Of a DNA stretch of 32,121 bases, positions 20,004 to 24,226 are shown one piece after another. The notes beneath the pieces were generated by a model that saw nothing but the letters and a program-made list of their open reading frames with translations, was not told the DNA's origin and did no database searches. Both the position numbers and the translations under genes were made by a program. This stretch comes from Actinomycetes bacterium (lineage in GTDB: Bacteria > Actinomycetota > Acidimicrobiia > Acidimicrobiales > Acidimicrobiaceae), in contig JAJYGA010000040.1 of the NCBI GenBank assembly GCA_021785255.1, forward strand, positions 1 through 32,121, written 5' to 3'. How positions within the stretch are numbered: the stretch's first letter is position 1; each line of letters starts with the position of its first letter.

Positions 20004-21362
20004 GTGCACGTAATAACTATAGAAACTGAAGAGTTAGGGGATAGAAGCTATTTAATTCACGACGGCAAAGAGGCATTGGTAGTCGACCCTCAAAGAGACA
20101 TCGATAGAGTTTTGGCAGCCGCCAAGCAAGCGGGAGTTGAGATTAAAGGTGTTGCAGAGACACACATCCACAACGACTACGTCACTGGCGGTTACGAGTT
20201 GGCGATCCAGCTGCAGATTCCATACTATGTCAATGAGGCTGACAATGTTTCTTTTGAACGTTCTGGAGTTACAGACGGTAGTCGCATATCTATTGGGTCG
20301 TTGTCGATCGAAGTCGTTGCTACACCTGGTCATACCCGCAACCACCTCTCCTATGTTGTGACGGACGGAAGCGGTGACGGAGTAGTTCTGTCTGGCGGTT
20401 CCATGTTATTTGGGTCGGTCGGAAGAACGGACTTGATCTCTACCGAGCTTACCGAGCCGTTGGCAAAGGCTCAATTCCATTCCGTGAGAAGGCTTGCTGA
20501 GAAGTTCCCCGATCACTTTGGAGTATTCCCAACACATGGATTTGGAAGTTTCTGTTCTTCTGTCGCCACGACAGGCGGATCAACCTCTACCCTCGGTGAA
20601 GAGCGCAAACATAATGTAGCTTTTAAGTTTGATGACGAAGAACTCTTTGCGAAAACGATAATCGCAGGACTTACCGCTTATCCAAAGTACTACGTTCACA
20701 TGGGCCGATTAAACGCTGCTGGACCTCGAGCTCCCAGGTTTGAACCTCCAATACTTCAAAGCGCTGACGATATATATATGCGCATTGAACGAGGTGAATG
20801 GGTTATTGACATGCGGTCTCGTCATGATTTTGCAAAAGCTCACATTGTCGGTAGCTACAACATAGAGTATGGAAACTCTTTTACCACCTTTTTTGGCTGG
20901 GTAGTGCCCTTTGATGCTGAGGTAACGTTGATGACTGAGGACATAACGAAGTTTGAACGTGCTCGAGTTGATCTCTCTCGTATCGGCTTTGACAATATAC
21001 GTAACGCGGTAATCGGCGATGTCGCATTCTTGGCCAACGATAAGATGCCATCGTCTTGTTATGAAGTCATCTCTTTTAGAGATCTCGATGAATTCGATGA
21101 GAACTACCGTCTTATAGACGTTAGACGCCACGACGAATGGAACAGCGGCTTTATAGACGGAGCGCATCATATACCCTTGGAGTTGGTGCATGAGCGTCGG
21201 ATGACGCTTGACGATAACGAGTCACATGTCGTACACTGCCAGAGCGGATATAGGGCGTCAATTGCTGCAAGTATTCTTGATGCGGCCGGTAAAAAGGTTT
21301 ACCTGATAAATGATGACTTTGGTGAAGCTGAACGAAGTGACCTCATAGTGAAAAGACCGTAG
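20004..21362 (+). CDS. Persulfide dioxygenase-rhodanese fusion (CstB-like)
   Basis: The protein has 452 residues in three parts: a metallo-beta-lactamase-fold persulfide dioxygenase (about 1-240), a rhodanese-like domain without Cys (about 255-345), and an active rhodanese (about 355-450) with Cys412 in VVHCQSGYRAS. The iron site of the first part is visible: His54, His56 and Asp58 in THIHNDY, His110 in PGHTRNH, Asp143 in GRTD and His178 in PTHG. This architecture is that of CstB from the Staphylococcus aureus cst operon, which oxidises persulfide and transfers sulfane sulfur to form thiosulfate. Here the next gene is a sulfide:quinone oxidoreductase, 79 bases on, again as in cst. GTG 20004 is preceded by GGGGGA. 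The middle domain is normally inactive in the family. It acts in the cytosol in sulfide detoxification. Confidence 0.93.
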   Translation: MHVITIETEELGDRSYLIHDGKEALVVDPQRDIDRVLAAAKQAGVEIKGVAETHIHNDYVTGGYELAIQLQIPYYVNEADNVSFERSGVTDGSRISIGSLSIEVVATPGHTRNHLSYVVTDGSGDGVVLSGGSMLFGSVGRTDLISTELTEPLAKAQFHSVRRLAEKFPDHFGVFPTHGFGSFCSSVATTGGSTSTLGEERKHNVAFKFDDEELFAKTIIAGLTAYPKYYVHMGRLNAAGPRAPRFEPPILQSADDIYMRIERGEWVIDMRSRHDFAKAHIVGSYNIEYGNSFTTFFGWVVPFDAEVTLMTEDITKFERARVDLSRIGFDNIRNAVIGDVAFLANDKMPSSCYEVISFRDLDEFDENYRLIDVRRHDEWNSGFIDGAHHIPLELVHERRMTLDDNESHVVHCQSGYRASIAASILDAAGKKVYLINDDFGEAERSDLIVKRP

Positions 21363-21441
21363 CGGCTTTCACAACATAGTAGGTTTACTAAATGTACATA
21401 CTCCGAGGCTGGCTGCCTAGGGACACTTGAAAGGGGCGGAG

Positions 21442-22644
21442 TTGAAAAATCTTCATCATAATATTCTCATAGTTGGCGGCGGAACAGCCGGAATAGCGGT
21501 TGCCGCTCGTCTGCAAAAGACAGACATACATGATATAGCCATACTGGATCCATCTGCCTATCACTACTACCAACCTCTTTGGACACTTGTTGGAGGAGGT
21601 ATCGTCAGGGCTTCCGAAACGGTAAGAGAAGAGGCAAATTACATTCCTTCTCGGACAACATGGATTAGGGATAAGGCAATCTCTATTGATCCAGATGCGA
21701 AGGTAGTAACTACAGAGGAGGATCTTTCTATCAGCTATGACTATCTCGTTGTCTGTCCTGGAATACAACTCGATTGGAGTCGCTTGCCAGGATCAGCTGA
21801 GATGTTGGGCAAAGAGGGCGTCTCGTCGAACTATACCTATGAGACTGCTCCTAAGACATGGGAGTTTTTAAAGTCTACCAAAAAAGGTACCGCGGTGTTC
21901 ACCATGCCTTCGGGTCCTATCAAATGCGCGGGCGCACCGCAAAAGATTGCCTATCTAGCCTCTGATTATTGGCGCTCAACGGGCGTACTGCCAAAACTCG
22001 ATGTGCATTTAATTCTTCCTACCCCAGGCATGTTTGGGATACCCGAGTTTGCTAAGGTCTTGGAACAGGTAGTCGCTCGCTATGGTATTCAGGTACATTA
22101 CCAAAGTGAAGTTGTCGAGTTAAATCCAAAGACAAAGACGATAACCGTCGTAAACAATGCAGAAGGTGGCGTTAAAAGTACACTTGACTTTGACTTCATA
22201 CACATAGTTCCTCCTCAAAGCGCTCCCGATTGGATCAAGGCATCCCCAATTTCAGATCCAGATAGCCCGGAAGGATATGTACAGATAGATCAAAATACTA
22301 TGCAACATGTCAGATACCCTGACATATTTGCGCTTGGCGATGCGGGAAGTACCCCTAATTCAAAGACAGGTGCTGCTATTAGGAAACAGGCGCCAGTGGT
22401 GGTAGCGAACCTATTGAGTCATATGGCCAAGCAACCACTAGCGGCAAGCTACGATGGTTACTCCTCATGTCCTTTGGTAACCTCACGGAAGTCCATGCTC
22501 TTGGCCGAGTTTGACTATTCCATGAAACCAGCACCTTCAATCCCTATTATCGATACAAAAAAGGAACGTTACGATATGTGGCTTCTGAAGAGATACGGGC
22601 TTCCTTTTATGTACTGGAATCTCATGCTAAAGGGACTTGCCTAG
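21442..22644 (+). CDS. sqr: Sulfide:quinone oxidoreductase, type II (SQRDL-like)
   Basis: This flavoprotein has 400 residues. It opens with the FAD-binding ILIVGGGTAGIAVAARL and carries the HYYQPLWTLVGGG block, then PSGPIKCAGAPQK with Cys162 and YSSCPLVTS with Cys343, the catalytic pair of mitochondrial-type SQR. A second FAD segment (DIFALGDAGSTPNSKTGAA) and the C-terminal quinone-side region (RYGLPFMYWNLML) follow. It oxidises sulfide, passes electrons to the quinone pool, and gives persulfide, the substrate of the CstB-like enzyme before it. An upstream in-frame TTG exists at 21427, but AAAGGGG lies five bases before TTG 21442, which is chosen. Membrane attachment is peripheral, through the C-terminus. 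It fits an organism exposed to sulfide or sulfur minerals, which is inference. Confidence 0.94.
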   Translation: MKNLHHNILIVGGGTAGIAVAARLQKTDIHDIAILDPSAYHYYQPLWTLVGGGIVRASETVREEANYIPSRTTWIRDKAISIDPDAKVVTTEEDLSISYDYLVVCPGIQLDWSRLPGSAEMLGKEGVSSNYTYETAPKTWEFLKSTKKGTAVFTMPSGPIKCAGAPQKIAYLASDYWRSTGVLPKLDVHLILPTPGMFGIPEFAKVLEQVVARYGIQVHYQSEVVELNPKTKTITVVNNAEGGVKSTLDFDFIHIVPPQSAPDWIKASPISDPDSPEGYVQIDQNTMQHVRYPDIFALGDAGSTPNSKTGAAIRKQAPVVVANLLSHMAKQPLAASYDGYSSCPLVTSRKSMLLAEFDYSMKPAPSIPIIDTKKERYDMWLLKRYGLPFMYWNLMLKGLA

Positions 22645-22749
22645 AAAAAGCCGTTGAAATGCGCCTTGACAGATCGCTCCACACTACATGACGCAAGTTT
22701 TTGCAGCTCCTCCTTCCGTCTTGCAACAATGGACGCAATCGCCAGATTG

Positions 22750-22804
22750 CTCGAATTGACGCAGGCGTGGGAAGCCCCGTCCGCAAGGGCGGGGAGGATG
22801 CCAC
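22750..22804 (+). mobile_element. Relic IS200/IS605 right end with a TnpB guide-RNA-like scaffold
   Basis: The stretch has the layout of the right end of IS200/IS605-type elements and of the RNA scaffold read from it: GCAGGCGTGGGAAGCCCC, then a hairpin of eight pairs (22775-22782 with 22787-22794, one G-T pair, GCAA loop), then AGGATGCCAC (22795-22804). GTGG before the stem can pair with CCAC after it. In live elements this hairpin is the 3' part of the omega/reRNA next to tnpB, and the following 16-20 bases act as guide. No tnpB frame is left upstream (22645-22750 has only short scrambled frames) and no tnpA is in view, so this is a remnant. Confidence 0.55.
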
Positions 22805-22921
22805 TATGGATAGCTCTTGATTAAGTATTTGCGACATACAACTATCTACACACCCGTCTACGCTTGATGTTGATAAGTTAACTTACTGAATGATTTGCTA
22901 TCTGAGTTAAGGCGGGTTGAG

Positions 22922-24226
22922 TTGAAACAGACAGAGGGCTCTGGCTCGTACTCATCATCTTTTTTTAAGAACACGCTGAAGAAAATTGTATTTGGCTCAA
23001 TAGAAGAAAAAGATCTTCATAAGATTTTGATAGCTCGAGGTTTGATGAGCGCTTCGAGAGCTTTAGCCGGTGTGTTGGTTCCCGTCTACTTCGTACTCCT
23101 TGGTTTTCGGGCAACGTCTTTAGGGGCGTTGTTCATGGGTATAGCCTTTGCTGCAGTCGCACTTTCCTTTAGCGTTGGAGTACTGTCAGACGCAAGTGGT
23201 CCAAAGCCGTTTTTGATCATGTTTCCACTGATGGTCACGTTGGCGTCGGTAGTTTTTGCTTTTACTACAAACAAGCTTGCATTAATAGTAGTAGCGATGG
23301 TTGCTTCTTATGGAAGGGGTGCAGGTGCAGGTGTAGGACAGATTGGACCCTATCAGCCAGCGGAGAGTTCTTTAGTAGTGTCAGCTGTATCTGCGAAAGA
23401 GCGCAACAACGCATTTTCGCGAGTCACCATGTTTTCGACGTTTGGCGCGCTGGTTGGTTCGTTACTTGCCTTGGCATCAAGGTCAAATCCTGGTAGTCGC
23501 TCTTTTGTAATGGACGAGTTTCGCTTCTCAATGCTGATCATTGGAACTTTATCGCTCTTTGCAGCACTCGTTGTTTTTCCAATAACCAACCACAAAAGAG
23601 AGGTTCAAAGTCAAAGTCTCCTTGGGAGTCCACTCCCACAGTCGGCTAAGGCGCTTGTACTTAGACTTTGGGCAACGAACACTCTCAACGGACTTTCGGT
23701 GGGTCTTTATGGACCATTTATTACGTATTGGTTCTACATACGATACGGCGTGAGTACCGCGACTATTGGAGTCCTTTACAGCGGAGTAAATATTGCTGCT
23801 CTTTCCTCTGGATTAATTGCTCCAAAGCTTGCGAAACGATACGGACTGATCCGCGCAACTGTTTTGCTTCGAGTCGCTCAGGCCTTGATGCTTATCCCAT
23901 GGGCGATCTCACCCACGTTTGTTCTGGCAGGGGTATTTTACACGGCCCGTATGATCTTTCAGCGAGCAAGTTTTCCCCTGAGGCAGTCCTACGCAATTGG
24001 GCTGGCTCCTGAAGGATCAAAAGCTCGTGTATCTTCCATCTCGAACATTCCTTCACAGGTGGCCATGGCGGTTTCCCCGGTTGCGGCAGGGGTGATTTAC
24101 GACTCCGTATCCCTTGAGCTACCGTTTTTCCTTGGAGCAGTATTACAGCTAGCAAGTAGCTACCTTTACTATATTTTCTTTAAGGACAGACCTCCTGTTG
24201 AAGAACAAAGCGAGGACCCTTTATAA
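22922..24226 (+). CDS. Major facilitator superfamily (MFS) transporter
   Basis: The protein has 434 residues and about 12 helices. The loop after helix 2 reads SVGVLSDASGPKPF, a variant of the MFS motif GxLxDxxGRR, and AKRYGLIRATVLLRVAQ is the matching motif in the second half. Between the halves is a polar loop (NHKREVQSQSLLGSPLPQ). It would move a small solute, substrate unknown; drug-efflux or sugar-type subgroups cannot be separated by eye. An in-frame TTG at 22895 has no ribosome site, while AAGGCGGG lies five bases before TTG 22922, so the later start is used. The first 45 residues are polar and cytosolic. It stands after the relic IS end and before a c-di-GMP gene, with no clear operon partner. 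Confidence 0.88.
   Translation: MKQTEGSGSYSSSFFKNTLKKIVFGSIEEKDLHKILIARGLMSASRALAGVLVPVYFVLLGFRATSLGALFMGIAFAAVALSFSVGVLSDASGPKPFLIMFPLMVTLASVVFAFTTNKLALIVVAMVASYGRGAGAGVGQIGPYQPAESSLVVSAVSAKERNNAFSRVTMFSTFGALVGSLLALASRSNPGSRSFVMDEFRFSMLIIGTLSLFAALVVFPITNHKREVQSQSLLGSPLPQSAKALVLRLWATNTLNGLSVGLYGPFITYWFYIRYGVSTATIGVLYSGVNIAALSSGLIAPKLAKRYGLIRATVLLRVAQALMLIPWAISPTFVLAGVFYTARMIFQRASFPLRQSYAIGLAPEGSKARVSSISNIPSQVAMAVSPVAAGVIYDSVSLELPFFLGAVLQLASSYLYYIFFKDRPPVEEQSEDPL

Follow-up and report, generated by a model that had tools for sequence, protein, structure and literature searches.

The intergenic region behind an SQR-like gene of the window, the whole 32,121-nt stretch of DNA analysed here, holds a 49-nt unit that is probably a relic, namely the terminal 44–49 right-end bases of an IS200/IS605 element that carried tnpB and belonged to the C4/C26 group (Table 1). 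The unit is homologous to such right ends, stops at their right boundary and, on the left, starts to match them exactly with TTGAC. Missing from it are the left end, the gene and more than half of the guide-RNA scaffold, its upstream part. A right-end remnant as short as this can mimic a guide RNA when read alone, and the first-pass annotation had described it as an orphan TnpB guide-RNA-like scaffold and taken it for a relic; the latter suggestion stands as the most likely reading. The span given there, 22750-22824, does cover the unit and is a little wide, the element-derived part being 22756-22804.

Table 1. Features of the unit and its surroundings in the window, and single-hairpin units of the related genome G019.
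Feature	Position	Strand	Remark
Element-derived part (unit)	22756-22804 (49 nt)	+	By homology in own genome and relatives
TTGAC, target/TAM-like pentamer	22756-22760	+	Exact left edge of homology
GCAGGCGTGG, 3' arm of the right-end second hairpin (HP2)	22761-22770	+	Partner 5' arm missing
GGAAG, foot of the terminal hairpin	22770-22774	+	
Terminal hairpin HP1, 8 pairs, GCAA loop	22775-22794	+	Stem 4 by analogy with ISDra2
AGGATGCCAC, right tail	22795-22804	+	22804 is the right boundary of the element
Native flank in guide position	22805-22824	+	Second genomic target not found (22805-22822 tested)
Upstream intergenic DNA	22645-22755	+	No detectable left end, tnpB or right-end homology
Upstream neighbour, FAD/NAD(P) oxidoreductase (Pfam Pyr_redox_2)	21427-22644	+	'SQR' is the name given in the first-pass annotation
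Downstream neighbour, MFS transporter	22895-24226	+	
G019 single-hairpin units	L224 1686-1736, L226 1903-1953, L227 1753-1803, L230 1609-1659	+	
G019 single-hairpin units	L229, L231, L232, L243	-	

The homology was established with a 141-base query against the window's own genome, G000 (2.57 Mb in 173 contigs, the window contig being C57). The query matched 24 places, the window included, the closest being G000:C4:55-103 (94% over 49 bases, E 4.5e-15) and C26:154-202 (92%, E 1e-13). An IS200/IS605 right end without genes, as first described, is thus what the letters hold: both they and the 8-pair GNRA hairpin are present, the homology is beyond chance, and the matching right ends belong to TnpB-type elements of the same genome. 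The lack of any matching right end, which had been named as the outcome that would speak for a plain terminator, was not seen, as the proposed search for IS605 right ends returned 23 other places. Eleven of these reach or pass 22804 (base 105 of the query) and 8 end exactly there, which indicates that this right boundary, as first placed, is genuine; at the remaining 12 places the match is confined to the hairpin and the near flank. Visual inspection sorts the right ends into three groups, the C4/C26 group, which is the window's own, a larger group mostly with GGAAGCCTCG, and a GGTTCAC-ending group, some members of which have tnpA nearby. Many right-end copies sit at contig ends, and at one place (C43; L058 1064-1090 and 1286-1312) an identical right end with its flank occurs twice, with N after one of them, probably an artefact of scaffolding.

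The terminal hairpin and the right boundary are common to the unit and to tnpB-carrying elements. Profile searches of the genome (E <= 0.001, fragments included) located 10 OrfB_IS605, 20 Cas12f1-like_TNB (TnpB C-terminal) and 19 Y1_Tnp places, none of them on C57, and tblastn with five TnpBs gave no match in the window at E <= 1e-3, in agreement with the original remark that tnpB and tnpA frames are absent. The right-end copy on C26 directly follows the 3' end of a tnpB with 65% identity over 52 aa to the TnpB on C14. On that contig a full-length element (C14:706-2061) comprises a left end with its own hairpin, starting TTGATCAAAC / TTGATCAAACAGGAACG, a 412-codon frame which stops 14 bases before the GAAG foot, and a right end of this kind. 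Decay is graded, with C145 matching the C14 element over its last 84 bases only and C106 over the last 274. The start of C14 (L069 1-217) also carries a tandem repeat of about 54 bases, with a 100% self-match over 163 bases at offset 54.

Eight of 11 left ends start with TTGA and one further base (TTGAT, TTGAC, TTGAA or TTGAG), the others being CTGAC (L152), GTGAC (L157) and TTAAA (L062); a 12th listed row has no left end and was not counted. TTGA plus one base is therefore likely to be both target and TAM of these elements, judging from their ends. The target and TAM of ISDra2 is TTGAT (PMC8612924), and TTGAC of the unit is a target of the same TTGA type. No left end was found near the unit, since an alignment over 22561-22900 matched the hairpin itself only.

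Within the unit, GGAAGCCCC is present at 22770-22778, and the terminal hairpin reads CCCCGTCC-GCAA-GGGCGGGG, with 8 pairs, one of them G.U, and a GNRA loop (22775-22794). Its GGAAG foot (22770-22774) presumably stands where Y1 transposase ends have their guide tetranucleotide. The 49 bases fold with -24.2 kcal/mol (z -2.60), a value equalled by 3 of 200 shuffles. The hairpin had originally been drawn with GTGG/CCAC closing pairs; GTGG (22767-22770) can indeed pair with CCAC (22801-22804), but the minimum-energy fold prefers to pair GGCGU (22764-22768) with AUGCC (22798-22802). As a family feature this closure fails: by eye it can form, with a wobble, in the C4/C26 group and not in the commoner right ends. 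Just 5' of the unit, at 22735-22750, lies a perfect 6-pair hairpin (GCAATC-GCCA-GATTGC) that was not seen in the right ends.

What the unit lacks was read from two alignments, the first of 33 right ends, the window included, with 5 ends of the GGTTCAC group left out, and the second of 19 right ends plus the window (20 rows), with 13 short, odd or decayed ends left out. Common to the fuller ends are the stretches ACGTGGAGGGATATCGCAC and CACAGCGACCC...GAAGCGTCAAC, as well as a second hairpin, which varies, and the terminal hairpin plus tail; 55–70 further conserved bases lie 5' of the second hairpin. Of 17 own-genome right ends tested, the window among them, 15 have this second hairpin immediately 5' of the GNRA hairpin; the two that lack it are the window (5 pairs, 12-base loop) and C120 (below threshold). 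The rule asked for 6 or more pairs whose end lies no more than 3 bases from the foot, and ends of which fewer than 70 bases were available were dropped. It is loose. In the related genome G002 it accepts all 6 places, even the units on C159 and C87; in G019 it passes 15 of 25 rows, including a palindrome and 2 of the 8 single-hairpin units, and rejects 3 of the 15 rows that look ordinary. The nearest fuller copies have CTATACCTG-TTTACG-CAGGCGTGG as their second hairpin, and the unit starts at TTGACG, inside the loop of that hairpin.

For the scaffold we used a pairing model built by analogy with ISDra2, in which GATATC pairs with GATGTC (pseudoknot) and CGTG with CACG. When the 20 aligned rows are scored on this model, the window retains 8 of 8 HP1 pairs, 2 of 3 of stem 2, 1 of 4 of stem 1, 3 of 6 of the pseudoknot and 2 of 6 of HP2. 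Fuller ends also score low on single helices, with stem 1 at 1 of 4 in G006C37 and G061C60 and 0 of 4 in G002C22, the pseudoknot at 3 of 6 in G019C49, and HP2 at 3 of 6 in C26, G002C148 and G006C37, the HP2 columns being fitted to the larger group. Across the proposed scaffold 86.4% of cells pair, versus 35–49% in slid versions, and the five covariation measures were reached by 24, 421, 34, 479 and 69 of 500 shuffles, which gives the overall structure little support from covariation. A pseudoknot in this family is suggested by analogy, and the pair counts do not prove it; the second hairpin is the safer feature. Upstream of the unit, which the genome-wide query covered from 22700 on, no significant likeness to the right end was found: alignment to two right-end references was matched by 460 and 64 of 500 shuffles (local) and by 383 and 489 of 500 (anchored).

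Part by part, the unit resembles IS200/IS605 (IS605/IS1341-like) TnpB elements such as ISDra2 in its terminal hairpin, its tail and the right boundary, which it shares with the own-genome elements, and differs from them in having no left end, tnpA or tnpB and in missing most of the right end. The solved omegaRNA of ISDra2 has a 116-nt scaffold with stems 1–4, bases -6 to -2 being paired with -102 to -106 (PMC10097598). The unit has the last stem in common with this omegaRNA (reRNA), as well as the 3' strand of the pseudoknot, judged by position; at 49 nt it is without stem 1, the 5' strand of stem 3 and the partner strand of the pseudoknot.

A relic of this form could have arisen as follows. 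An element would first have landed 3' of TTGAC. A short-repeat deletion or an aberrant TnpA event would then have removed everything between this target and the TT(T/G)AC of the second-hairpin loop, joining the two. The product would be a dead stub composed of target, terminal hairpin, right tail and native flank, today presumably a short DNA or RNA hairpin between sqr and the MFS gene without guide-RNA function. The left edge coincides exactly with TTGAC: because 37 TTGAC occur on the + strand of the window, a random edge would seldom fall on one. The five nearest right ends (C4, C26, G002 C52, C148 and C59) read TTTAC at the left-edge position, so a TTGAC edge needs one change only. Against the relic stands a copy in G002 (G002:C159) that shares with the unit TTGAC and GCCAC, both absent from these five right ends; such sharing, together with the exact TTGAC edge, is not predicted by random truncation. 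GCCAC alone is present in other right ends (C120, L148 and L238).

The alternative that survives best, possible though on balance rather unlikely, is that a 44-base mini-element (22761-22804) inserted whole 3' of TTGAC, moved in trans by a Y1 TnpA of the same genome. One hairpin would then serve as both left and right end, in the manner of REP sequences, and the pre-insertion allele would be TTGAC|TATGGATAG. The TTGAC at the exact left edge fits such an insertion, the Y1_Tnp places listed above offer candidate transposases, and the G002:C159 copy is a sister copy at an unrelated site: it is 46/49 identical, lies 199 bases past another reading frame, and its upstream flank is not significantly similar to that of the window (113 of 500 shuffles as good). 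However, only these two copies of the window's type were found among the best candidates, at most 9 per genome, of 98 genomes and in an exact-pattern scan. No empty site was seen at the window locus, where the sqr-MFS intergenic region of the congener G003 is too diverged for a base-exact alignment. The upstream DNA of G002:C159, moreover, may keep weak traces of a full right end, with 26 and 11 of 500 shuffles as good in anchored and 126 and 110 in local alignments.

Units with one hairpin also occur in G019. There, 30 right-end matches were reduced by a stricter tail pattern to 25 rows at 24 distinct places, which by eye comprise 15 of the usual type, 8 with a single hairpin, preceded by TTGAC or TTGAT and once by TTATC, and 1 tail palindrome. 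The 8 units are about 49–51 bases long, lie at unrelated sites and have GATGTCAC behind them (once GATGTCGC); a script flagged 6 of the 8 as having a TTGAC/TTGAT left-end-like start, the hairpin and GATGTCAC (one with GTCGC). They are solo-end-like or mini IS605 derivatives. Further units were flagged in G023 (3), G032 (1), G002:C87 and G008:C54, and, within the same genus and family, units of this kind or close to it are found at L290 1514-1564 (G002:C87), L283, L288, L295, L308 and L314 (G032), L284-L287 (G023) and L302 (G008). The palindrome, G019:C5:10809 (L228 1300-1339), is near-perfect and has a copy of the right-end tail at either side (TGACATCCTCCCCG...CGGGGAGGATGTCA), resembling a REP with a double foot.

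Movement of such units is favoured by one variant that occurs at three unrelated sites, G019:C20, G032:C132 (3 mismatches of 51, with TCGAT in front) and G032:C109 (7 mismatches); the gene before the G019:C20 unit was not found beside the G032 copies. That gene runs into the unit and has homologues in G013 and G026, and the C-termini diverge from about the start of the unit, which would fit an insertion. An empty site was not seen there either, and no base-exact junction could be drawn from the six relatives of its genus that were searched. On the other side, the loops of the G019 units are by eye partly of left-end and partly of right-end type, a mixture that fits repeated recombination between left and right ends equally. 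Repeated deletion between similar end hairpins, the counterpart of solo-LTR formation, fits the G019 units at least as well as movement does. The window unit differs from them in that its inner 10 bases derive from the right end.

PMC6006769 describes REP sequences as single hairpins of 21–65 nt, intergenic, with a short guide 5' of the foot and akin to IS200/IS605 ends. The unit is like REP sequences and their TnpA-REP (RAYT) system in all these respects, with its one short hairpin, guide 5' of the foot, intergenic position and IS200/IS605 kinship, and differs in its foot (GGAAG versus GTAG/GTGG), its few copies, its obvious IS605 ancestry and its target-like pentamer and tail. Measured against REP sequences in general, the single hairpin is there, 2 copies of the window's type were seen, and Y1 transposases, as candidate partners, are encoded in the genome. 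The PATE-like sequence of Halanaerobium, a 271-nt IS605 derivative made of ends only, is likewise non-coding and ends-only, but it has two ends against one hairpin, and about 271 bases against 49 (PMC7290912). A PATE or MITE has both ends around no gene; the left side of the unit consists of the TTGAC pentamer without a left-end hairpin.

As a broader conjecture, which we hold to be unlikely, IS200/IS605 elements of this bacterial family may shed 44–51-base single-hairpin derivatives with a TTGAC/TTGAT target and a GATGYCAC tail, moved in trans by Y1 TnpA, the window copy being one of them. That copy would have arisen as the TTTAC loop of the second right-end hairpin became a TTGAC cleavage site. 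If true, single-hairpin derivatives would link IS605 ends to REP sequences as a living intermediate, and mobility of the units would give a direct test of the origin of REP-type repeats from IS200/IS605 ends. In the portions of the literature available to us, neither single-hairpin IS605 units nor a trans role for orphan right ends was described.

Exaptation, whereby the hairpin would mark or protect the 3' end of the sqr mRNA whatever its origin, is improbable. The unit starts 111 bases past the end of the SQR-like gene and is the most stable of four stretches folded behind it, at -24.2 kcal/mol compared with -5.1 for 22645-22704, -13.5 for 22690-22755 and -9.9 for 22805-22894. In G003 a strong terminator-like 16-pair hairpin follows sqr (L160 2824-2858; 1 found, 0.4 expected), and the window is without one; but G002 is also without a terminator-like site after sqr, and the unit has no T-run and is thus no intrinsic terminator. 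We rejected the fallback first proposed, a plain terminator of sqr, on the same ground, as a GC-rich hairpin without a T-run, and 22500-23000 contains 0 terminator-like sites where 0.3 are expected.

That a TnpB from another locus uses the unit in trans as an orphan omegaRNA, guided by 22805-22824, is very improbable. The genome does encode TnpB C-terminal domains at the 20 places mentioned, and the unit retains the terminal hairpin and the proposed 3' strand of the pseudoknot. The truncation of the scaffold nevertheless speaks strongly against the claim: only the last 49 nt are there; the family alignment shows neither the upstream scaffold nor a 5' arm of the second hairpin in the unit, and for the scaffold the analogy with ISDra2 (PMC10097598) points the same way. 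Nor does the flank behave as a guide, as 22805-22822 has no second genomic match at 0–2 mismatches; one place matches with 3, compared with 4 places within 3 mismatches for the reversed pattern used as control. With both upstream scaffold and second target lacking, this reading was rejected. An Rfam search of the window returned 0 matches at gathering score. Among the relatives, sqr and the MFS gene stand side by side in G003 (same genus) without the unit, G002 has the two orthologues on separate contigs, and G001 (76% complete) gave no sqr match. The unit is therefore not conserved at the locus in G003, the one congener in which this can be judged, and its absence there speaks against a selected guide RNA.

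A chance hairpin is refuted: although 8-pair hairpins are common in the window (40 matches on both strands, some places twice, under a loose rule of 8 pairs, G.U allowed, and a 4-base loop), the E value of 4.5e-15 and the right boundary shared with known elements decide against it, and HP1 has the richest arms in G/C (7/8) of the 40.

In a viral collection, 3 matches to TTGACGCAGGNGTGGGAAG, one identical sequence without the hairpin, were set aside as unrelated. A genome collection, from which the window's own genome is possibly left out, gave 4 matches in one MAG, JAJYHJ01, and a single match in a Bacteroidales MAG was discarded for want of a hairpin. On the other side of the SQR-like gene (21427-22644), directly before it, the window encodes a metallo-beta-lactamase and rhodanese protein (Pfam; 20004-21362), which we take to be persulfide dioxygenase-like, and the two genes are possibly a sulfide oxidation pair.
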